Origin: Methanococcoides vulcani
Lineage (GTDB): Archaea; Halobacteriota; Methanosarcinia; Methanosarcinales; Methanosarcinaceae
Length of the DNA: 64,000 nt
Direction: 5' to 3'
NCBI RefSeq assembly: GCF_900111645.1
Contig: NZ_FOHQ01000001.1
Span: 443,468-507,467, forward strand
Part shown: positions 7,546 through 18,861 of the stretch, piece after piece
How the letters are laid out: each line of letters begins with the position of its first letter
How positions within the stretch are numbered: position 1 is the stretch's first letter
The notes under the pieces: generated by a model
What the model was told of the DNA's origin: nothing
Database searches by the model: none
What the model saw: the letters and a program-made list of their open reading frames with translations, nothing else
Made by a program: the position numbers and the translations under genes

Positions 7546-9792
<2,247 letters not shown>

Positions 9793-9813
9793 TTTTATTG
9801 TGGAAACAAAAGG

Positions 9814-9841
9814 AAAGCCCCGGTTTCGGCCGGGGCTTTTT
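9814..9841 (+). terminator. Bacterial-style intrinsic terminator after icd
   Basis: Perfect 10-bp inverted repeat AAAGCCCCGG (9814-9823) and CCGGGGCTTT (9830-9839) around loop TTTCGG, running into a T-tract. The A-tract/GC stem/T-tract form is classic for bacteria and unlike the weak T-tract terminators expected here. It supports transfer of the icd gene together with its own terminator. Confidence 0.85.
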
Positions 9842-9867
9842 AGTATCTAAATAAGCAATGTGATTAG

Positions 9868-10023
9868 GGAGCTAAAGCTTCCGCTTCTGCTTGGGTTGGG
9901 AAGACAGATGCTATCTTCAAGGCAACAGAGGATGTCATTGGAGAAGGCAAGTATCTTACCTACGATATGGGTGGAGATGCATCCCTTAGCGGAATGACCG
10001 ATGCTATCATTGCAAAACTGTAA
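9868..10023 (+). pseudogene. C-terminal remnant of an isocitrate/isopropylmalate-dehydrogenase-family gene
   Basis: About 51 codons without a start, preceded by two in-frame stops. The reading ends in ATEDVIGEGKYLTYDMGG, then DASLSGMTDAIIAKL and TAA. The T-Y-D-x-x near the end followed by (F/M)TDAII(A/E)xx matches the C-terminus of the dimeric IDH family. The rest of the gene is missing; its place is taken by the monomeric icd and its terminator. I read it as the tail of a displaced resident IDH. The length is too short to separate IDH from isopropylmalate dehydrogenase with certainty. Confidence 0.55.
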
Positions 10024-10201
10024 AACAATATTATACGTAAGTAAGTCCGACTCTGGCGAGAATGGGACTTGAGGTGTATGGGGTCTGCGGATCCTTTACA
10101 CTATTCTTTTCTTTTACACTTCTTTAGCGGATTGCACCGTTATTTGAGTTTCGAATTTGACGAAAAGACCTTATTTTTAGGTCATGCTGTTTTCTGATCA
10201 A

Positions 10202-10312
10202 GCATAGTTCATGAACCTTGTTTATGTGGTTGAGAGGGATGATACTCATCTGTTGAGAAAGAAGATTATTGAAATGTCCTATAACGAATGGAAGAAGATT
10301 TACTTGAGCTAA
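10202..10312 (+). pseudogene. cas1 fragment B (C-terminal linker and start of HTH region)
   Basis: After an in-frame TAG the frame reads FMNLVYVVERDD, then LLRKKIIEMSYNEWKK, then a short divergent tail and TAA. The start aligns with the point where the larger Cas1 copy (13432-14442) loses similarity (EFMKLVYVERHIKNLL there). The SYNEWKK motif is what precedes the C-terminal helix-turn-helix in casposase-type Cas1. It continues logically in fragment C at 10966-11113. Confidence 0.55.
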
Positions 10313-10413
10313 TTGATTATGTTGATATCACCATAAGCTGTGCATCAAAGACTATAAGAGATGTTATCAAGCCTCTTGCACAGGTTGGTACTAGATACAT
10401 TCCACTAAAATAA
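10288..10413 (+). CDS. Short open frame of unknown meaning overlapping cas1 fragment B
   Basis: 41 codons (MEEDLLELIDYVDI... ending in GTRYIPLK) in another frame from fragment B. No family recognised. It may be the edge of DNA inserted into cas1, since cas1 similarity stops here and resumes near 10966. Low support as a gene. Confidence 0.2.
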   Translation: MEEDLLELIDYVDITISCASKTIRDVIKPLAQVGTRYIPLK

Positions 10414-10633
10414 TTAACATTGACTTAATAAAAAGGTGTGGGAAGGTTTTTGTTGAGACAATTTAACCTAAAAAATCAACAATAAACTTTGTCCATCCCC
10501 CTATCAGTTGTCATTTCTGAGATCAGAATCAGGTATTCTGTAAAGTTAAATTTAGAAGTATATTCTTGCAGAGACCACTATTACCAATATTTTAAATACT
10601 AATCCTGCTTGATGTTAATGGGGGTTATAAAGA

Positions 10634-10936
10634 ATGTTATTTATGATTAGCCTTGAGCATACACCTGAACAGTGTTTTGGAAGAGAAGAATACAAGGAAG
10701 AAATGAAGCAATGGGCTGGGGAAATGAGAAGCTCAGCAGAAAAACTGGGCATAAAAATAAATGGAGCATACGTTTGCCCTAACGAGCATATTTTCTATTT
10801 CATCCTCGAATCAGATAGTTTGAAGGCAATTTCTGAATTCTTCAAACCACCGATGTTAACGCATCATACCGGAAAGATCTCTCCTATAATGACAATAGAG
10901 GAGGCAACAGAAGGGACTTCATTGCTAGAAAAATAA
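10634..10936 (+). CDS. Small ferredoxin-fold-like protein of unknown function
   Basis: 100 residues: a beta strand (LFMISLEHTP), an acidic helix (EEYKEEMKQWAGEM), a second half with HIFYFILES and a C-terminal HHTGKISPIMTIEEA segment. The layout suggests a small alpha/beta barrel of the DUF3303/GYD type; this is a fold guess, not a firm match. A TATA-like TTTTAAATA near 10590 and a G-rich stretch (GGGGGTTATAAAG) before the ATG support expression. It lies between two pieces of a broken cas1 gene, so it either inserted there or was joined by rearrangement. Confidence 0.6.
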   Translation: MLFMISLEHTPEQCFGREEYKEEMKQWAGEMRSSAEKLGIKINGAYVCPNEHIFYFILESDSLKAISEFFKPPMLTHHTGKISPIMTIEEATEGTSLLEK

Positions 10937-10965
10937 ACTTTAGTTTACAAAGGTTAGAGGATGCT

Positions 10966-11113
10966 ATGGGGGAAAATAGGGTTCTCTAAAGGTACTTTGC
11001 ACTACATGAAGCAGAATGCCAAGAATGAGAAGCCGTTTACTCTCAATGCTCTGTTAGGGAGAGATTGGAGAGTTGGGGAGAAAAAGCTTCTGTTGTTGAA
11101 TGATGGATAAAAT
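10966..11113 (+). pseudogene. cas1 fragment C (C-terminal helix-turn-helix)
   Basis: The frame reads W-GKIGFSKGTLHYMKQNAKN followed by EKPFTLNA, then decays and stops at TAA 11111-11113. GFSKGTLHYMK is the C-terminal helix-turn-helix of casposase-type Cas1 and follows directly on the SYNEWKK of fragment B in an intact protein. No start codon or upstream domain is present. It ends 29 bases before the 3' end of the beta-helix protein gene. Confidence 0.6.
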
Positions 11114-11142
11114 ATTTCAAAAAAGATCAAAGAAGGGTTAGA

Positions 11143-12642
11143 TTACCCTTCTGAATTCTGTATCAGTTCAATGATACTTTCTGCCTCATTGATTATGTAG
11201 TTAGCCTCCTCATCGGTTAGACTTCCTTTTTCCACCATTTTCTCAACAACTTCAATAAATTCTTCAAGGTTTTCGATAGCTTCCTCATTGTCGCCTTTGT
11301 CGAGTTTGTTGATTACGGCATCGAGTTTTGCATTAAGAATCTTTGTGGTAGAACTGGATACATCCAGACCATTCACATACTCTTTGAGAGTTTCTAGTTC
11401 CTCAGTTGGGGTAGGTGTTTCAATAATAACCGGACAGAACATCAGTGGATAGCTGTCATTACCATATGGCGTGTCACCAATACCGTCACCATCGACGTCG
11501 TTGCTCGAGTTGTTGGCGTAGTCGTTGGCGTAATAGTTACCTGTGTAGTTCACGTAGTTGCTACCATTGTAGGTATAGGTCACCATCTCAGTTGAGTTCC
11601 AGATGTTGGTACCATCTTCAGCAACGTTATTCGTGTTGTTGAAGCAGTTGTTGTAGATGATGTTGTTGCTGGACAAGTACAGAGAGATGCCATAATAATT
11701 GTCCGACATCGTGTTGCTGGTCAGGTTGTTGTTGCTGGAAGAATACAGATTGATGCCGTTACCGTTGTTCAATGCCGTGTTGCTGGTCAGTGTGTTGTTG
11801 CTGGATTCCACAAGAAAGATGCCGTCTCTGTTGTTCGAGTTTGCAGTGTTGCTGGTCAGCGTGTTGTTGTTGCTGGACAAGTACAGATAGATGCCACGGT
11901 CATTGTCCGATGCAGTGTTATTTGTCAGCGTGTTGTTATTGTTCAAAGAATCCAGGTAGATACCGCCCCAGCCATTGTTCGACGCCGTGTTGCTGATCAG
12001 CGTGCTGTTGCTGGCATTACGCAGATAGATGCCGTGTCCGGTATTGTTCGATGCCGTGTTGCTGGTCAGGTTGTTGCTGTTGGAGTTCCCCAATTTGATG
12101 CCGTTACCGTTGTCCGACGCCGTGTTGCTGGTCAGCGTGTTGTTGCTGGAATCATCCAGATGGATGCCGAAGTCGTTGTCCGTCGCCGTGTTGCTGGTCA
12201 GCGTGTTGTTGCTGGAATCATCCAGATGGATGCCGTAGTTGTTGTTTAATAAGACGTTGTTAGTGACTGTACATCCTTCAACTCCGTCAAGATATATTCC
12301 AGCAGCAGTTGTGGTACCAAGTACACAAAAACCATCGATAGTTACATTGTTTGCAGTCACGTTGAAGGTATCAACGTCCGGAGCGTCAGCCAAAACAATA
12401 GCATGACTCGAAGATTTGATTGTTATCTCCTTGTCCACAACCACATGTTCTACATATATAGCATCCAGAATGGAATCTCCTGTATGGACAATAATCGTGT
12501 CACCGTTGCTTGCAGCATCTATGGCATCCTGGATAGAATCTCCAGGGTACACATTCCACACATCTGCTGATGCAGTTCCTACGGTCATTAAAGCTAAAGC
12601 CATTCCAAAACAGATCAGTATACTTTGTTTAATTCTCATCAT
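11143..12642 (-). CDS. Secreted parallel beta-helix (NosD-type) repeat protein, shorter copy
   Basis: About 499 residues from ATG at 12642 (MMRIKQSI), preceded by GGTGGTG; the frame continues 10 codons upstream but lacks a good ribosome site. The signal peptide ends at ASA. A VYPGDSIQDAID opening is followed by about ten beta-helix turns with core NNTLTSNTAxxNxxGIxLxxSS, each about 24 residues (roughly 11650-12330). An Asn-rich turn and a DxDGDGIGDTPY calcium-like loop follow. The end is a charged helical domain without membrane segment. NosD/pectate-lyase-like helices often bind carbohydrate or act as adhesins; the exact role is unknown. Cargo-like position in element 1, paralogue of the gene at 14963-18544. 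Confidence 0.85.
   Translation of the reverse strand: MMRIKQSILICFGMALALMTVGTASADVWNVYPGDSIQDAIDAASNGDTIIVHTGDSILDAIYVEHVVVDKEITIKSSSHAIVLADAPDVDTFNVTANNVTIDGFCVLGTTTAAGIYLDGVEGCTVTNNVLLNNNYGIHLDDSSNNTLTSNTATDNDFGIHLDDSSNNTLTSNTASDNGNGIKLGNSNSNNLTSNTASNNTGHGIYLRNASNSTLISNTASNNGWGGIYLDSLNNNNTLTNNTASDNDRGIYLYLSSNNNTLTSNTANSNNRDGIFLVESSNNTLTSNTALNNGNGINLYSSSNNNLTSNTMSDNYYGISLYLSSNNIIYNNCFNNTNNVAEDGTNIWNSTEMVTYTYNGSNYVNYTGNYYANDYANNSSNDVDGDGIGDTPYGNDSYPLMFCPVIIETPTPTEELETLKEYVNGLDVSSSTTKILNAKLDAVINKLDKGDNEEAIENLEEFIEVVEKMVEKGSLTDEEANYIINEAESIIELIQNSEG
11650..12330 (-). repeat. Tandem coding repeats of beta-helix turns
   Basis: About ten units of 69-72 bases, each containing GTGTTGCTGGTCAGCGTG on the plus strand (the NTLTSNTA core read in reverse). 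Some units are nearly identical, for example around 12120-12165 and 12185-12230, which shows recent unit duplication. These are protein repeats, not a CRISPR array. Confidence 0.8.
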
Positions 12643-12901
12643 TTTCACCACCAAATAATTAAGAATATACATACCGAATTTTTATTATGTATATAAGTGT
12701 TCGACTTTTTCAGTTAAATGTGTTTGGAACTGTTTGAAAGTTAACGGCGTTAACGGGCATCTATTGAATAAGTTATGTCTATTACAATAATTTGTCAAAA
12801 CTGAATAGTAGTAATAAAATTGCTTTCCAAATTTTAGCTAGGAATATAATATTTTGAATTGCACATACATAATTAAATTTTGAGAGTTCGGTTTTTTACA
12901 G

Positions 12902-12914
12902 TTACCTATATCCC
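12902..12914 (-). repeat. Right terminal repeat of element 1
   Basis: TTACCTATATCCC, identical to bases 18739-18751 of the right terminal repeat of element 2 and inverted relative to the left terminal repeat at 12927-12944. It is followed directly by the target duplication GACTTAATGTGC. Confidence 0.65.
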
Positions 12915-12915
12915 T

Positions 12916-12927
12916 GACTTAATGTGC
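12916..12927. repeat. Target-site duplication copy between the two elements
   Basis: GACTTAATGTGC, matching GACTTACTATGC at 18753-18764 with two differences, and extendable to 16 bases through GGGG on both sides. It lies exactly between the right end of element 1 and the left end of element 2. Confidence 0.65.
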
Positions 12928-12944
12928 GGGGATATAGGTAAGTC
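12927..12944 (+). repeat. Left terminal inverted repeat of element 2
   Basis: CGGGGATATAGGTAAGTC, an exact 18-base inverted match to 18736-18753. Similarity stops at the next base. Confidence 0.8.
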
Positions 12945-13009
12945 GTAAAAATGCCACTCTTCCATTAAATAAGAAAAGTTTGTAAAAAAGAGTAAATCGA
13001 TTTACCTTG

Positions 13010-13426
13010 TTATTTTTCCTCAAGCTTTTCATCGCGTTTAATGTCTAAAGTTCCCTTTTCCCCAAATTTCCATACTACAAATGGGCCATTATATGAGGAG
13101 GCTCCTTTACCAACAGCAACTTCGTATCCCATTTCAGAAACTATGTGCAAATATTTTGAGATGACGTTATGGAAAACCTTTTTTGGATCATAGTCTACCC
13201 AATGAGCAGAAATCCAAAGTTTATTTTTGCCTACAATCACATGACATTGACCACACAAAGTAATTAAATTATTAATTTCGTGTGATTTTGATTCTTTAAA
13301 GGGCGTTATATGATGGACATGCAATTTTTCAGTAGATTCACAAATCTTGCATTTATTGAGATCCCTTTCTAATGCCAACTTTCTTTGTTTGTACCATGAT
13401 TTATTATTTGAATTAGTTCTCTCCAA
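13010..13426 (-). CDS. HNH endonuclease
   Basis: 138 residues from TTG at 13426. It carries Cys26-x2-Cys29, His38-His39 in HVHHITPF, Asn52/53 and Cys58-x2-Cys61-His62, which is a complete HNH core with its zinc-binding Cys pairs. The C-terminal 70 residues match no domain I recognise. HNH nucleases cleave DNA, and one accompanies Cas1 in most casposons. Its start lies 5 bases from the first codon of the divergent cas1 frame, leaving no room for a cas1 promoter; the frame also stays open some codons upstream into cas1, so the true start is uncertain. Confidence 0.85.
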   Translation of the reverse strand: MERTNSNNKSWYKQRKLALERDLNKCKICESTEKLHVHHITPFKESKSHEINNLITLCGQCHVIVGKNKLWISAHWVDYDPKKVFHNVISKYLHIVSEMGYEVAVGKGASSYNGPFVVWKFGEKGTLDIKRDEKLEEK

Positions 13427-13431
13427 AAAGG

Positions 13432-14442
13432 ATGGATGTTGATAGCATTGTTGTATATGGAAGAAGTGGATCTTTGAGCCTTGAAGCTATCAGATGGCTG
13501 ATTAAGCACAATGTACAAATCACTATGTTGGACTGGAACGGCAAGTTACTGACGACAATGCTTCCTTCTGAAAGTACCAATGTTAAGACAAAGTTCGCAC
13601 AGTACCATGTTTATGAAGATCAGGATACAAGGGTAAACCTTGCTAAAAAGTTCATTGAAGCCAAAATAGCCAAATCGGAAGCTGTCCTTGATTACCTTAA
13701 ACAAAGGTATCCTGAAGTCGAATACGATTTTACTGATGATAAGGCCAGACTTGAGAATGCCACATCCATAAGGGAAATACTTGGTGTTGAAGGTGGAATT
13801 GCATGGAAGTACTGGAATGAATACGCAAAAGCTATTCCTGAACAATACGATTTCAAGGTAAGAACAGATAATTTCAGAAGGGCAAATGGAGCAGGAGATC
13901 AAGTCAATGTCATGCTCAATTATGGCTATGCTCTGCTTGAATCTGAATGCCTGAGAGCCATAAATTCAGTTGGTCTTGATGCTCATGTTGGTTTCCTTCA
14001 TGAGATGAATCAGAGCAAGTACAGTCTTGCTTATGATCTCCAAGAACCTTTCAGGTTCATTGTGGATCTTGCTGTTATGAACCTGATTGAAAAAGGAGCT
14101 ATGGATAACAAGGACTTTATCAGGACTGAAAGTTTTTCATTGAGACTTAAACCAACAGGAGCAAGGAAGGTTACTGAAGAGTTCAATGCTATGATGAATG
14201 GGAAAGTTGAGTACAGGAAGAAGAATAGTTCTTGGGGATCTGTACTGTTGCTGAAGGCAAGAGAGCTTAGCCATCATCTTGTTGGAAAGAGGAAAGTGGT
14301 TGAGTTCATGAAGCTTGTTTATGTTGAAAGGCATATCAAGAATCTTCTTCATCGATCTTACTATAAAACTTCGAATTGTTGTAATAATCGTGTCTATCAA
14401 TCTCATTTTAAGACTTCCACCTTACATCATTTACCCTTTTAA
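13432..14442 (+). CDS. cas1: Casposase-type Cas1, truncated at both ends
   Basis: 336 residues. Cas1 is a DNA integrase; stand-alone Cas1 of this type serves as the transposase of casposons. Catalytic residues are present: Glu120 in LGVEGG, His190 in GFLHE and Asp202 in LAYDLQEPF. The N-terminal beta domain is missing: similarity runs only from FSPKRMDVDSIVVYGRSG, whose first residues lie upstream of the ATG behind an in-frame TAG. The C-terminal helix-turn-helix is also missing: after EFMKLVYVE the frame becomes unrelated. The lost C-terminus resembles fragments at 10.2 and 11.0 kb. No cas2 and no CRISPR repeats are nearby. Probably inactive or a remnant. Confidence 0.85.
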   Translation: MDVDSIVVYGRSGSLSLEAIRWLIKHNVQITMLDWNGKLLTTMLPSESTNVKTKFAQYHVYEDQDTRVNLAKKFIEAKIAKSEAVLDYLKQRYPEVEYDFTDDKARLENATSIREILGVEGGIAWKYWNEYAKAIPEQYDFKVRTDNFRRANGAGDQVNVMLNYGYALLESECLRAINSVGLDAHVGFLHEMNQSKYSLAYDLQEPFRFIVDLAVMNLIEKGAMDNKDFIRTESFSLRLKPTGARKVTEEFNAMMNGKVEYRKKNSSWGSVLLLKARELSHHLVGKRKVVEFMKLVYVERHIKNLLHRSYYKTSNCCNNRVYQSHFKTSTLHHLPF

Positions 14443-14962
14443 TGTTTGATCCCCACTACAACATGTACACCCTCTAAAGACATCAAGAGTAGTACAATAA
14501 TTGAGGAATTGTGTTGGAATATTTACTCCTTGGACAGCAGACACATCAAAAAAAATATGGTTGTACATGACAAGTTCTCATTAAAAAAAATTGAGTTTGA
14601 TAACATTTAATCTTAAATTCTTGATTTTTGTGTACACGTCTCACACAACCAGACTGCCCATAAAATTTAGCAAAATTAAAGTTTGGATTTACAAATTTCT
14701 CAATGATTCAAACAGATACTCAAACAAATTTTTAATTTTACCAAGATTTGAGAGAACTCCTGCAGCAAGTATTCCAATTATTAGAATTAGACCTTGGTTT
14801 GTTGCAGCATAATCATTAAGTGGTGTTACAATACAAATATAAAAATTGGCTAAAATAAGACTTACAGTTAAAGTGGGAAGAAATTGAAGAATACAAACAA
14901 TCCCATCCAAACAGCACATAATCGTTTTTGAGTATGTGGAATCTGAAGTGATTCCACTTAAC
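14443..14962. other. AT-rich decayed stretch between cas1 and the cargo gene
   Basis: About 520 bases of very AT-rich sequence. The only plausible gene is a 76-codon frame on the minus strand (14689-14919) with two hydrophobic segments. No cas1 C-terminus, polymerase or transposase frame was recognised. Confidence 0.5.
14689..14919 (-). CDS. Possible small membrane protein in element 2
   Basis: 76 residues with two hydrophobic segments (about 8-30 and 42-58: LILIIGILAAGVLSNLG) and a positively charged tail. No family recognised. It could be a fragment of a larger membrane protein. Weak support, apart from a continuous frame within AT-rich DNA. Confidence 0.35.
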   Translation of the reverse strand: MCCLDGIVCILQFLPTLTVSLILANFYICIVTPLNDYAATNQGLILIIGILAAGVLSNLGKIKNLFEYLFESLRNL

Positions 14963-17900
14963 TCAATCCCGCTTTCTTCTCAGGAAAAGCACAATCGCAA
15001 TTCCAAGCACAACTACTGTCAGTAAAAGAAGGGTGGTTAGCACCGGATATTCTTCGACTGAAATGTAACCTATCTTTGTCTCAGTGTGACTTCCATTCAG
15101 ATTACTGGCATTCAATGATACATCATAGATTCCAGGCATATCGTAGGTGTGAATCGGATTCCGAGTAGTGTAATCAACTATGCCATCTCCATTCACATCC
15201 CATTCCCATGAGGTTGCATTGCTTGAGAAATCTGTAAACTGAACTGTCATTGGAGCTTTGCCTGAAGTAACATTGGCAGTGAAATCAGCCACAGGAGGCA
15301 GTAAAAACGAATATACTCCTTCATCTGTTACCTCAACGGTATAAGGCTGGTCTGGTATATCACCAACAGTGACCTCTTTGCATAAGATTATGCTAGTGCC
15401 TCTTGTCGAGACCTCAAGGGTATAGGTATCTGTGGGCTCTGCATCTGGCTCTGGAATTATTTTTATTTGGTAATTCCCTGGTTTTGGAGCTGGAATTAAT
15501 ATGCGGTCATCTGAATCACCATCCCCATTTATGTCGGTTTCCGTATAAGTTGCTCCAGGGATCTGATTTGTTTGTTTATTGATTATTAATCCTTCTGGAT
15601 CCACGACTTCTAGATCTACAGGACATGTGCCAGTGATTGTTAGTGTATCTGCAAGTGGCAGGAAGTCGATATTGTTTGAATGAATAGCATATTTATTTAG
15701 GGGTGAATCACAGAAACCATCATCATTCGTATCTACATTTGTCTGGCTGAATCCGTCGTTGTAAGGAGTTGCCCAGAAGTTGCCGCCAAGATTATGACCA
15801 CCCATGATATTCGTGCCTTCGGTCTCTATGGTGTTCCAGTCATTGCCTGTGTTGGTCCCCCTAAAGTCAGTATTGTCAGTGTTGTTGAAGTGGTTGTTGT
15901 AGATGAGATTATCATTGGAATGGTACAGATAGATGCCGTCGTCGTTGTTCAACACCGTGTTGCTGGTCAGGTTGTTGTTGCTGGAATCTCTCAGATAGAT
16001 GCCGTTGTAGTTGTTCAACACCGTGTTGCTGGTCAGGTTGTTGTTGTTGCTGGAACTACGCAGATTGATGCCGAAGAGATTGTCCGACACCGTGTTGCTG
16101 GTCAGGTTGTTGTTGCTGGAATCATTCAGAACGATGCCGTTATCATTGTTCGACACCATGTTGCTGGTCAGCGTGCTGTTGCTGGAAGACCACAGATAGA
16201 TGCCTGTTTTACCACTACCTGAAGCGCCGCTCACCTTGAACCCGCTGATGGTCACCCAGTCAGCGGTAACCTCGAAGACATGATCGCTGGAGGATGCGGC
16301 GGTGACATGCGTGACGGCAGCGCCATCGGTTGAAGTGATGTTCAGTTGCTTGTTCACGTTCACATTCTCATAGTACGTGCCTGGATACACAAGGATGGTA
16401 TACCCATTAAATGTAGTTGGAGCTTCCACAGCATCCTGTATTGATGTATAATCTGCGTCCGGATATTGTATTAAATCGTCAGCGACTGTGATGGTGGCTG
16501 CTGGTGCAGCCAGAGGCAGATAGTCCACGTGACCCGATGCAATCCAATAGGGTACGTCGCATATATCATTACCTCCCACATCAACATCAACACAGGTCTG
16601 GCTGAACCCATCGTTGTAAGGTGTTGCCCAGTAGTTCCCACCCAGATAAGGTCCTTCAACAATGTTTGGACCTGAGGAATTGGTGGTATTCCAGACATTG
16701 TTAGTATTGGTCCCGGTAAAAAAAGTATTGGCAGTGTTGTTGAAGTGGTTGTTGTAGATGAAATTGTTGCTGGAAGAAGACAGACGGATGCCGCTGCCGG
16801 TATTGTTCAACACCTTGTTGCTGGTCAGGTTGTTGTTGCTGGATGCCTCCAGATAGATGCCGCGGTAATTGCCCGATGCCGTGTTGCTGGTCAGCGTGTT
16901 GTTGCTGGAAGATACCAGAAGGATGCCGTAATAGTTGTCCGACGCCGTGTTGCTGGTCAGGTTGTTGTTGGTGGAATACCAAGACAGCCAGATGCCTGCT
17001 TTATTAGTATCTGTAGCGCTGCTCACATTGAAACCGGTGATGGTCACCCAGTCAGCGGTAACCTCGAAGACATGATCACCGGGGGATGCGGCAGTGACAT
17101 GCGTGACGGCAGCGCCACCTGTTGAGGTGATGTTCAGTCGCTTGTACACGTCCACGTTTTCTGTATACGTTCCCGGGTAGACAATGATAGTATCCCCATC
17201 AGTTGTAATTACATTATCTATAGCAGCCTGTATCGTGGTGTAATCTGCATCTGGGCAATCATCTCTGAGATCGTCCACAGTGATTGTCTTTGGCATATAA
17301 AGCGGCAAGTAGTCTATATTGTTCGCATCGAGTAGTACGTATGGCCAATCACAGAATCCATCTCCATCTAAATTAACAACAAGCTGGCTGAACCCTCTAC
17401 CATCCGGTTTTGCCCAGCAGTTCCCACCAAGGAAAGGACCGCCAATGATGTTTGGACCTGAGGAATTGGTGGTGTTCCAGACGTTTCCGAACCTGTGAGT
17501 AGAAATATAAGCGTTGTTTGTATTATTGAAATAATTGTTGTAGATGATGTTATAGTAGTTGTATCTCCTCAGATAGATGCCGTAATCATCGTTGTACGAT
17601 GCAATATTATTGATCAGCGTGTTTTCGCTGCAGGATTCATCTAGATAGATGCCGCAATAGTTGTTCGATGCATTGTTATTGTTCAGCTCGTTGGCGTTGG
17701 AATACTGCAGAAGGATGCCGTTTGCGTCGTTGTTCGATGCGGTGTTGTTGTAGATGATGTTATCGTAGTTGGATTCCTGCAGAAGGATGCCGTTCCCGTC
17801 GTTGTACGATGCAATATTATTATTCAGCGTATTGTAGAATGTACCCTCCAGATGGATGCCGCTATCTTTGTTCGAGTTTGCATTGTTGTTGTTCAGCTCG

Positions 17901-18544
17901 TTGGCGTTGGAATGGTACAGATAGATGCCGTCGTCGTTGTTCAACACCGTGTTGCTGGTCAGGTTGTTGTTGCTGGAATGAGACAGACGGATGCCGTACT
18001 TGTTATCCGAAGCTATATTATTGCTCAGCTCGTTGACGTAGGAATCCTCCAGATGGATGCCGTAATAGTTGTACGATGCATTGTTATTGTTCAGCTCGTT
18101 GTAGTAGGAACCCGTCAGATAGATGCCGTAATAGTTGTACGATGCATCGTTATTACTAATATTACAGTTCTCAAACAACCCGGCAAGATATATTCCAGAA
18201 TATGGCCAACCAAAATTAGCACCTGTTACATTAAAGCCACTAATAGTCACATAATCCGCAGTCACATGGAATACATGATCAGTTGAAGAGGCAGCCTGAA
18301 CAATAGTATCACTAGGATTCCCAGATTGTGATTTTATGGTCAACTCCTTGTCCACATCTACGTTCTCTGTATAGGTTCCTGGATAAACAATGATTGTATT
18401 CCCGTCAGTTGCCGCGTTTATGGCACTCTGGATAGAATCCCCAGGGTACACATGTATCTCAATTGCTGCTACTGTACCTACGGCCATTACCAAAAAAACA
18501 AAAACCATTGCAAAACAAATCAGTAGACTTTGTCTAATTCTCAT
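14963..18544 (-). CDS. Giant surface protein: three NosD beta-helix modules, PKD domain, membrane anchor
   Basis: 1193 residues. A signal peptide (MRIRQSLLICFAM...) is followed by three modules, each starting with a VYPGTYxENVxVxK / DHVFxVTADxVTIxGF segment (about residues 30-110, 415-515 and 670-770) and continuing in Asn-rich beta-helix turns. Calcium-like DxDGDGFCD loops end the modules. Then come a beta-rich region (975-1090), a PKD domain (PPVADFTANV... near 1095) and a C-terminal membrane helix with RRKRD. It should sit on the cell surface with its C-terminus in the membrane; an adhesive, sheath or sugar-binding role is plausible but not shown. GGTGGG precedes the ATG. It occupies most of element 2. 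Confidence 0.87.
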   Translation of the reverse strand: MRIRQSLLICFAMVFVFLVMAVGTVAAIEIHVYPGDSIQSAINAATDGNTIIVYPGTYTENVDVDKELTIKSQSGNPSDTIVQAASSTDHVFHVTADYVTISGFNVTGANFGWPYSGIYLAGLFENCNISNNDASYNYYGIYLTGSYYNELNNNNASYNYYGIHLEDSYVNELSNNIASDNKYGIRLSHSSNNNLTSNTVLNNDDGIYLYHSNANELNNNNANSNKDSGIHLEGTFYNTLNNNIASYNDGNGILLQESNYDNIIYNNTASNNDANGILLQYSNANELNNNNASNNYCGIYLDESCSENTLINNIASYNDDYGIYLRRYNYYNIIYNNYFNNTNNAYISTHRFGNVWNTTNSSGPNIIGGPFLGGNCWAKPDGRGFSQLVVNLDGDGFCDWPYVLLDANNIDYLPLYMPKTITVDDLRDDCPDADYTTIQAAIDNVITTDGDTIIVYPGTYTENVDVYKRLNITSTGGAAVTHVTAASPGDHVFEVTADWVTITGFNVSSATDTNKAGIWLSWYSTNNNLTSNTASDNYYGILLVSSSNNTLTSNTASGNYRGIYLEASSNNNLTSNKVLNNTGSGIRLSSSSNNFIYNNHFNNTANTFFTGTNTNNVWNTTNSSGPNIVEGPYLGGNYWATPYNDGFSQTCVDVDVGGNDICDVPYWIASGHVDYLPLAAPAATITVADDLIQYPDADYTSIQDAVEAPTTFNGYTILVYPGTYYENVNVNKQLNITSTDGAAVTHVTAASSSDHVFEVTADWVTISGFKVSGASGSGKTGIYLWSSSNSTLTSNMVSNNDNGIVLNDSSNNNLTSNTVSDNLFGINLRSSSNNNNLTSNTVLNNYNGIYLRDSSNNNLTSNTVLNNDDGIYLYHSNDNLIYNNHFNNTDNTDFRGTNTGNDWNTIETEGTNIMGGHNLGGNFWATPYNDGFSQTNVDTNDDGFCDSPLNKYAIHSNNIDFLPLADTLTITGTCPVDLEVVDPEGLIINKQTNQIPGATYTETDINGDGDSDDRILIPAPKPGNYQIKIIPEPDAEPTDTYTLEVSTRGTSIILCKEVTVGDIPDQPYTVEVTDEGVYSFLLPPVADFTANVTSGKAPMTVQFTDFSSNATSWEWDVNGDGIVDYTTRNPIHTYDMPGIYDVSLNASNLNGSHTETKIGYISVEEYPVLTTLLLLTVVVLGIAIVLFLRRKRD

Positions 18545-18735
18545 TATTTCCCACCATCAAATAATTAAGAAGATATCTACAAAATTTATTCTATATTTAA
18601 ATGTGGTTTTTCAAAGTACTTATATTTTTTTTTTGGAAACTGGATTAGTAACAATTGTTACTAATTTTAGGCATAGATTATATTTATTTTACACAAGAAT
18701 TCTAGCTTTACAAAAATCTAGCGTACAAAAAAATA
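18545..18735. promoter_or_regulatory. Upstream region of the giant surface protein gene within element 2
   Basis: AT-rich. The 35 bases next to the start codon (CACCATCAAATAATTAAGA on the plus strand) resemble the equivalent bases before the element 1 cargo gene (CACCACCAAATAATTAAGA), so both cargo genes share their control region. A TATA-like TTTAAATATA read on the minus strand lies near 18592-18602. Confidence 0.45.
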
Positions 18736-18753
18736 GACTTACCTATATCCCCG
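18736..18753 (-). repeat. Right terminal inverted repeat of element 2
   Basis: GACTTACCTATATCCCCG, exact reverse complement of 12927-12944. Confidence 0.8.
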
Positions 18754-18764
18754 ACTTACTATGC
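18753..18764. repeat. Target-site duplication copy on the tRNA side
   Basis: GACTTACTATGC, partner of 12916-12927. Its last bases (TGC, then GGGG) are the 3' end of the tRNA-like sequence read in reverse. Confidence 0.65.
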
Positions 18765-18787
18765 GGGGGGTCGGATTCGAACCCTCG
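18762..18787 (-). pseudogene. 3' end of a tRNA-Leu-like gene, rest missing
   Basis: On the minus strand it reads TTCGAATCCGACCCCCCGCA: T-loop, 3' T-stem and acceptor strand. An acceptor end CCCCCGCA fits archaeal tRNA-Leu genes that begin GCGGGGG. The 5' T-stem strand does not pair fully (GAGGG against CCGAC) and no GCGGGGG partner occurs within the next 180 bases, so this is a remnant of at least 20 bases, not a working tRNA. Confidence 0.6.
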
Positions 18788-18861
18788 AATTCCTTCGAAG
18801 AAAATCCAATATAAGTTTCGTTCAAAGACTTTAAATCGTACAGAACGACTATTATTATAGG

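Follow-up and report, generated by a model that had tools for sequence, protein, structure and literature searches.

A PolB-less, decayed casposon in a probable tandem array of casposon relics at a tRNA-Leu-type leader of Methanococcoides vulcani

Does an element that has casposon-type ends and a Cas1 gene, and lacks a DNA polymerase, represent a new compact kind of casposon or the remains of a known one? The question is raised by a locus at ~10.2 to 18.8 kb of a 64,000-nucleotide stretch of the Methanococcoides vulcani genome (G000:C5:443468-507467; host genome, 2.31 Mb), which we refer to as the window. The first-pass annotation had recognized a casposon-derived unit that is bounded by terminal inverted repeats (TIRs) and has no polymerase (PolB), which our analysis bears out, and had proposed that it is a compact casposon relative of undescribed architecture. 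We arrive at another reading, to which we give a probability of about 0.87: the locus consists of family 2 casposon relics arrayed in tandem next to a leader formed by a tRNA-Leu 3' fragment, the leader-proximal, younger member of this array (element A, 12929-18751) is decayed and PolB-less, and the NosD genes are passengers (Table 1). The window thereby holds a known kind of structure, a family 2 casposon in decay that is part of a tandem array, and not the proposed new architecture; the interest of the locus lies in the array, in an excess of Cas1 3'-end stubs, and in PolB-less elements.

Table 1. Features of the casposon array in the window, from the distal end to the leader
Feature	Position	Strand	Basis or remark
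Second Cas1 3' fragment, oldest trace	10206..10299	+	Cas1 homology
DUF3303 gene between the two Cas1 fragments, probably older cargo	10634..10936	+	Position
Cas1 3'-end stub (HTH part), points to leader	10966..11083	+	Common to G025, matched in G018
Element B cargo: 509-aa NosD/beta-helix protein, FIMAH domain	11143..12672	-	Domain search
TIR of element B, older, extends leftward	12901..12914	-	Junction alignment
Distal target copy TGACTTAATGTGCG, flanked by one TIR each of elements A and B	12915..12928	+	Junction alignment
Left TIR of element A	12927..12944	+	18/18 inverted repeat
HNH cargo gene, N-terminally truncated	13010..13426	-	Joined to Cas1 at ~13411-13417; longer homologue near G043 casposons
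Casposase Cas1 pseudogene (ORF 13432-14442)	13417..14334	+	Homology; without ~37 N-terminal codons and HTH; active-site residues kept
Non-Cas1 tail (~190 bp) in place of the Cas1 HTH end	14327..14514	+	Identical junction twice on contig C9
Element A cargo: 1193-aa NosD/beta-helix protein, PKD domain, C-terminal anchor	14963..18544	-	Pfam NosD, Beta_helix, PKD
Right TIR of element A	18736..18753	-	18/18 inverted repeat; published core = 18739-18751
Leader-side 14-nt target copy, CGCATAGTAAGTCG on - strand	18752..18765	-	Fits published 14-nt CGCA-type TSD rule
Leader (insertion target): tRNA-Leu 3' fragment, no tRNA body	18762..18800	-	tRNA-Leu(UAA) match

The two ends of element A form the perfect 18-bp inverted repeat that had been annotated, and its presence in the window was verified. 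The repeat is not a product of chance, because its core GGGATATAGGTAA is that of the published TIR of the Methanosarcina mazei casposon MetMaz-C1 (GGGATATAGGTAACTC...; PMC10359463) and is found again in the full casposons that congeners carry; as a positive control, the survey recognized MetMaz-C1 itself (L128) through its target duplication (TSD), ATAATCTTAATGCG. Casposon TSDs are, by the published rule, 14-nt long and of CGCA type. A target duplication had also been claimed for the present unit, and copies do flank it, but they are 14 nt long and imperfect, with CGACTTACTATGCG on the leader side identical to the distal copy at 11 of 14 positions. Because of these three differences, a perfect duplication does not prove the insertion of element A itself, and the two copies may stem from different events. 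The leader next to the right TIR matches the 3' end of the host's own tRNA-Leu(UAA) at 35 of 38 nucleotides; the target is thus indeed tRNA-Leu 3'-end sequence, but a 38-nt fragment and not a tRNA gene, and ARAGORN called no tRNA in the whole window. The same leader pattern, TTCGAAT...CCC followed directly by CGCA, adjoins TIR-like ends at ~30 sites in the scanned loci. At another place in the host genome, a real tRNA-Leu(UAA) gene (L030:186-281; G000:C14) is followed by CGCACTTGTTTTTC and a divergent TIR, GGGATATATACAA, and four Cas1 stubs point to this site.

The Cas1 gene decides between a casposon and a CRISPR-Cas origin of the unit. Pfam (Cas_Cas1, 226 bits) and NCBIfam label the protein Cas1, which would suit a gene derived from a CRISPR-Cas system and flanked by coincidental repeats, but both labels come from general models. 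In bit score, the window Cas1 reaches 452 with 6opm, the structure of the M. mazei casposase, versus 136 with the best CRISPR Cas1, and a 55-sequence quick tree places it within the clade of casposases and separate from CRISPR Cas1 (SH-aLRT 99). The tree thus rejects a CRISPR origin, as do the matching TIRs, the target copies, and the full casposon homologues; no other cas gene is present among the open reading frames read around the window Cas1, and we regard the probability of such an origin as negligible. By its sequence relationships, the protein is a family 2 casposase.

This casposase gene is damaged at both ends. About 37 N-terminal codons, including those for N-terminal strands, and the C-terminal HTH are absent, and both parts are present in intact homologues of the same genome and of congeners; Cas1 homology stops at ~14334, where the tail listed in Table 1 begins to take the place of the HTH end. 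The active-site residues of 6opm (E162, H232, and E247; PMC6977970) have equivalents in the ORF (E120, H190, and E205, as read from the alignment), and the 336-aa open frame could in principle still yield protein. A casposase without the HTH does not integrate in vitro (PMC6977970), and element A probably cannot move by itself. The Cas1-tail junction is also found at two places on contig C9, fused there to a PolB fragment; this fused PolB-Cas1 fragment occurs in two copies (L022:3710-4195 and 11806-12290; G000:C9) that are 96.5% identical over 486 bp and carry the same tail as the window Cas1.

How the polymerase was lost can be read from the gene order. Full casposons of congeners run from TIR through cargo, PolB, HNH, a 213-aa gene (p213), a 306-aa gene (p306), and Cas1 to cargo and TIR. 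Element A contains no PolB, and the whole host genome has no intact casposon PolB, only C-terminal PolB fragments; the core casposon HNH, p213, and p306 have no match in the window. The HNH nuclease and the Cas1 that had been noted inside the repeats are both present, but as truncated genes. The window HNH was considered as the core casposon HNH and rejected, since it does not match the latter; it is a different, truncated cargo gene, with a longer homologue (62% identity) beside casposons of G043. The truncated start of this HNH and the start of Cas1 homology meet at one junction, and this, together with the congener gene order, means that one internal deletion would explain the missing PolB. 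The most straightforward interpretation is that a single internal deletion fused HNH and Cas1 and removed PolB. The giant NosD gene lies where congeners' full casposons have their Cas1-side cargo, between the Cas1 3' end and the TIR; it occupies an ordinary cargo slot, and the proposal that it replaced the polymerase was therefore rejected. NosD-type beta-helix genes occur in four places within casposon units (window:11143-12672, window:14963-18544, L017:2387-7108, and L018:11628-12866); the one in L017 is split in two frames, and the two in the window are 76-85% identical to each other in their starts and upstream DNA.

These features bear directly on whether element A is a compact, functional casposon type whose PolB was replaced by a giant surface-protein gene. 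It has two perfect TIRs, kept active-site residues, and no PolB, and the host genome does contain elements that combine an intact Cas1 with the lack of PolB (L017 and L018, below); however, neither the N-terminal strands nor the HTH, which is essential in vitro, remain in its Cas1, its HNH is truncated at the same junction, its NosD gene sits in the usual cargo position, and its target copies are imperfect. We consider this explanation very improbable; a decayed element with Cas1 and HNH cut by a deletion fits instead.

The PolB-less elements with intact Cas1 are located on contig C9. L018 (G000:C9:96187-99406; locus positions 8188-11407) is a 3.2-kb, TIR-bounded element with a leader and without PolB; it is flanked on both sides by perfect 14-nt copies, CGCACAATACTTCG, and encodes an intact casposase of 398 aa together with just one cargo protein, of 524 aa, that has no Pfam match. 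Judged by its TIRs, perfect 14-nt duplication, and full-length casposase, L018 qualifies as a putative autonomous PolB-less casposon. L017 (600-7358; G000:C9) likewise encodes an intact 398-aa casposase without PolB, with NosD-type cargo and a different target sequence; its distal TIR was looked for and not found. The Cas1-upstream regions of the two are 83% identical over ~250 bp, and the equivalent region of G018 also begins at a TIR, but there a PolB module adjoins. The Cas1 genes of L017 and L018 (dN 0.066, dS 0.66) seem to be under purifying selection, and much of this selection may be older than the loss of PolB. Among intact-Cas1 loci fetched from other genomes, 38 of 40 have a PolB module inside the fetched stretch; L123 (G062) was taken up as another PolB-less element and dropped, no recognizable TIR being seen. 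The 3.2-kb L018, with its intact casposase, perfect duplications, and no polymerase, makes the need of PolB for movement directly testable.

Element A does not stand alone. Its left TIR is one half of a head-to-head TIR-14 nt-TIR junction with a second, older relic, element B, and for this reason we read the locus as a tandem array. Element B is reduced to a TIR, its NosD cargo, and a Cas1 3' stub; from the distal stubs through the middle NosD relic to the leader-proximal element, the array forms a gradient of decay. As suggested by the leader, the TIRs, and the near-duplicate target copies, the parent of element A would have been integrated by a family 2 casposase beside the tRNA-Leu-type leader, between this leader and the older element B, with the 14-nt duplication as a result (its leader side is supported by G025). 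Following the congener gene order, the parent would have carried the HNH cargo on its PolB side and the NosD cargo on its Cas1 side; the internal deletion then took PolB, the core HNH, the two HTH genes, and the Cas1 5' end, and the HTH end of Cas1 was lost as well. The remaining unit is probably inert in cis; it still has its two TIRs, and the C9 casposases might mobilize it in trans.

Such mobilization leads to a further explanation, in which the truncated element A is a non-autonomous, MITE-like unit that owes its mobility to intact casposases supplied in trans from contig C9. Both TIRs are intact, two intact casposases are encoded in the genome, M. mazei mini-casposons with TIRs and TSDs and no genes do move (PMC10359463), and the Cas1-tail junction recurs at the two C9 places described above; however, what the C9 copies share with the window is just ~190 bp, and a TIR was looked for next to them and not found, which means that element A itself was not copied there. 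We regard this history as unlikely.

The same locus in congeners was compared with the window, and its flanking genes are syntenic across the genomes compared. The locus is empty or holds one element: G021 and G019 have ~300 bp between the flanks and no casposon trace, and in G025 the same leader (target copy CACATAGTAAGTCG) lies directly against one TIR and element A is absent. Relative to G025, element A is therefore a discrete leader-proximal unit, and leader-proximal insertion is well supported, although the absence of element A from G025 could reflect loss and not the state before insertion. G025 has the same Cas1 stubs and three membrane-protein genes where the window has NosD, and G018 and G020 have other cargo at the locus. 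Neither this comparison nor the Cas1 tree, the two checks that the first-pass annotation had named as able to overturn it, speaks against a casposon derivation. Casposon cargo and layout vary elsewhere in congeners: full casposons with defense-type cargo include L035:3655-5105 (a CBASS-like cyclase and 2TM effector) and L033:9107-12286 (a type IIG restriction-modification enzyme), and at one casposon locus (L107:8995-15433; G018) Cas1 lies directly at the TIR, inverted relative to its usual upstream gene p306.

Casposons lying in tandem at one target are already known (PMC10359463, PMC4046053, PMC6563490), and the window array resembles several such systems. MetMaz-C1, of family 2, shares with element A the TIR core, the 14-nt CGCA target copies, the tRNA-Leu-type 3'-end target, and the Cas1 clade, but it has all core genes and moves in vivo, whereas element A is without PolB and both Cas1 ends. 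MetBur-C1 to C3 of Methanococcoides burtonii (PMC4046053) lie side by side at one target with the older copies inactivated, and tandem casposons of M. mazei and thaumarchaea (PMC10359463, PMC6563490) likewise comprise several at one target, the older ones inactivated; compared with these, what is left of the old copies in the window is cargo plus a Cas1 3' stub, and the target consists of a piece of tRNA with no tRNA gene. At attTn7, islands of Tn7 (compared in PMC4046053) also grow as new copies enter the same conserved site and older ones decay, but the transposase is unrelated. As to CRISPR arrays, a homologous enzyme inserts next to a leader and the newest unit is nearest to it, an order that would also apply to the casposon array; the latter differs in gaining whole multi-kb elements that bring their own TIRs and cargo. 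CRISPR adaptation has been proposed to descend from casposons, and insertion beside a leader is common to both. In natural arrays at leader-like sites, the degree of decay gives an order of the members, and these can be compared from one species to another.

The Cas1 stubs of the array belong to a wider pattern. The host genome has 41 Cas1 matches, mostly 3'-end fragments (residues ~320-398), and we surveyed 112 Methanosarcinaceae genomes with 60-aa probes from the C-terminal, N-terminal, and middle parts of Cas1. Matches numbered 482, 61, and 175, respectively, in the family and 180, 21, and 29 at the genus level; the middle probe also catches apparent CRISPR Cas1 genes and so overstates the casposase count. 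Changes from stub to stub are mostly at third codon positions, as expected if every stub goes back to a functional Cas1 gene of its own. Of 13 stubs near a leader, 12 point toward it, versus 13 of 24 for intact Cas1 (Fisher p 0.03; the counts are small and non-independent). The scripted count of intact casposons, 13 toward the leader and 11 away, corrects an earlier impression that most of them face away from it.

An excess and orientation of this kind would follow if the array had grown by cargo turnover: homologous exchange between the Cas1 3' ends of a new casposon and a resident stub would delete the core and the old cargo, after which the stub, the new cargo, the TIR, and the leader remain. 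The window and G025 indeed differ in cargo between the same stub and the same leader, and their identity is 98.9% left of the stubs and 96.7% between them, versus only 90% and 87% in the stubs. This divergence suggests that crossover or gene conversion has exchanged sequence among stubs at different loci, and is no proof of cargo swapping. The internal stub (10206-10299) is also more diverged, with conserved DNA on both sides, which weakens a clean crossover at the cargo border; gene conversion between stubs therefore explains the divergence without cargo exchange. Two other loci searched for a second clean cargo swap vary in their cargo, with one site empty (G024, flanks 23 bp apart), and gave no clean breakpoint, and plain decay, with selection possibly having kept the cargo, would likewise leave Cas1 3' ends. 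Exchange of cargo remains, in our estimate, a plausible route that falls somewhat short of probable for the array, and for the stubs as such, recombination at Cas1 3' ends, as against plain decay, stands at a little below even odds.

Extended to the family, the reading becomes a tentative one: Methanosarcinaceae may carry casposon cargo loci in which serial leader-proximal insertion at a tRNA-3'-end leader is coupled with Cas1 3'-end exchange that discards core and old cargo and leaves a stub by each new passenger gene, and in addition a PolB-less lineage with intact Cas1 (L017, L018) may have moved at least twice without PolB in cis. Our literature search, which covers subscription journals thinly, found no earlier description of the Cas1 3'-stub pattern. 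The stubs provide a simple marker for past insertions and passenger genes in methanogen genomes. The host genome has stubs at ~30 places, and several stubs form rows of one orientation, spaced by 0.7-1.8 kb and separated by single genes, in a cassette-like arrangement.
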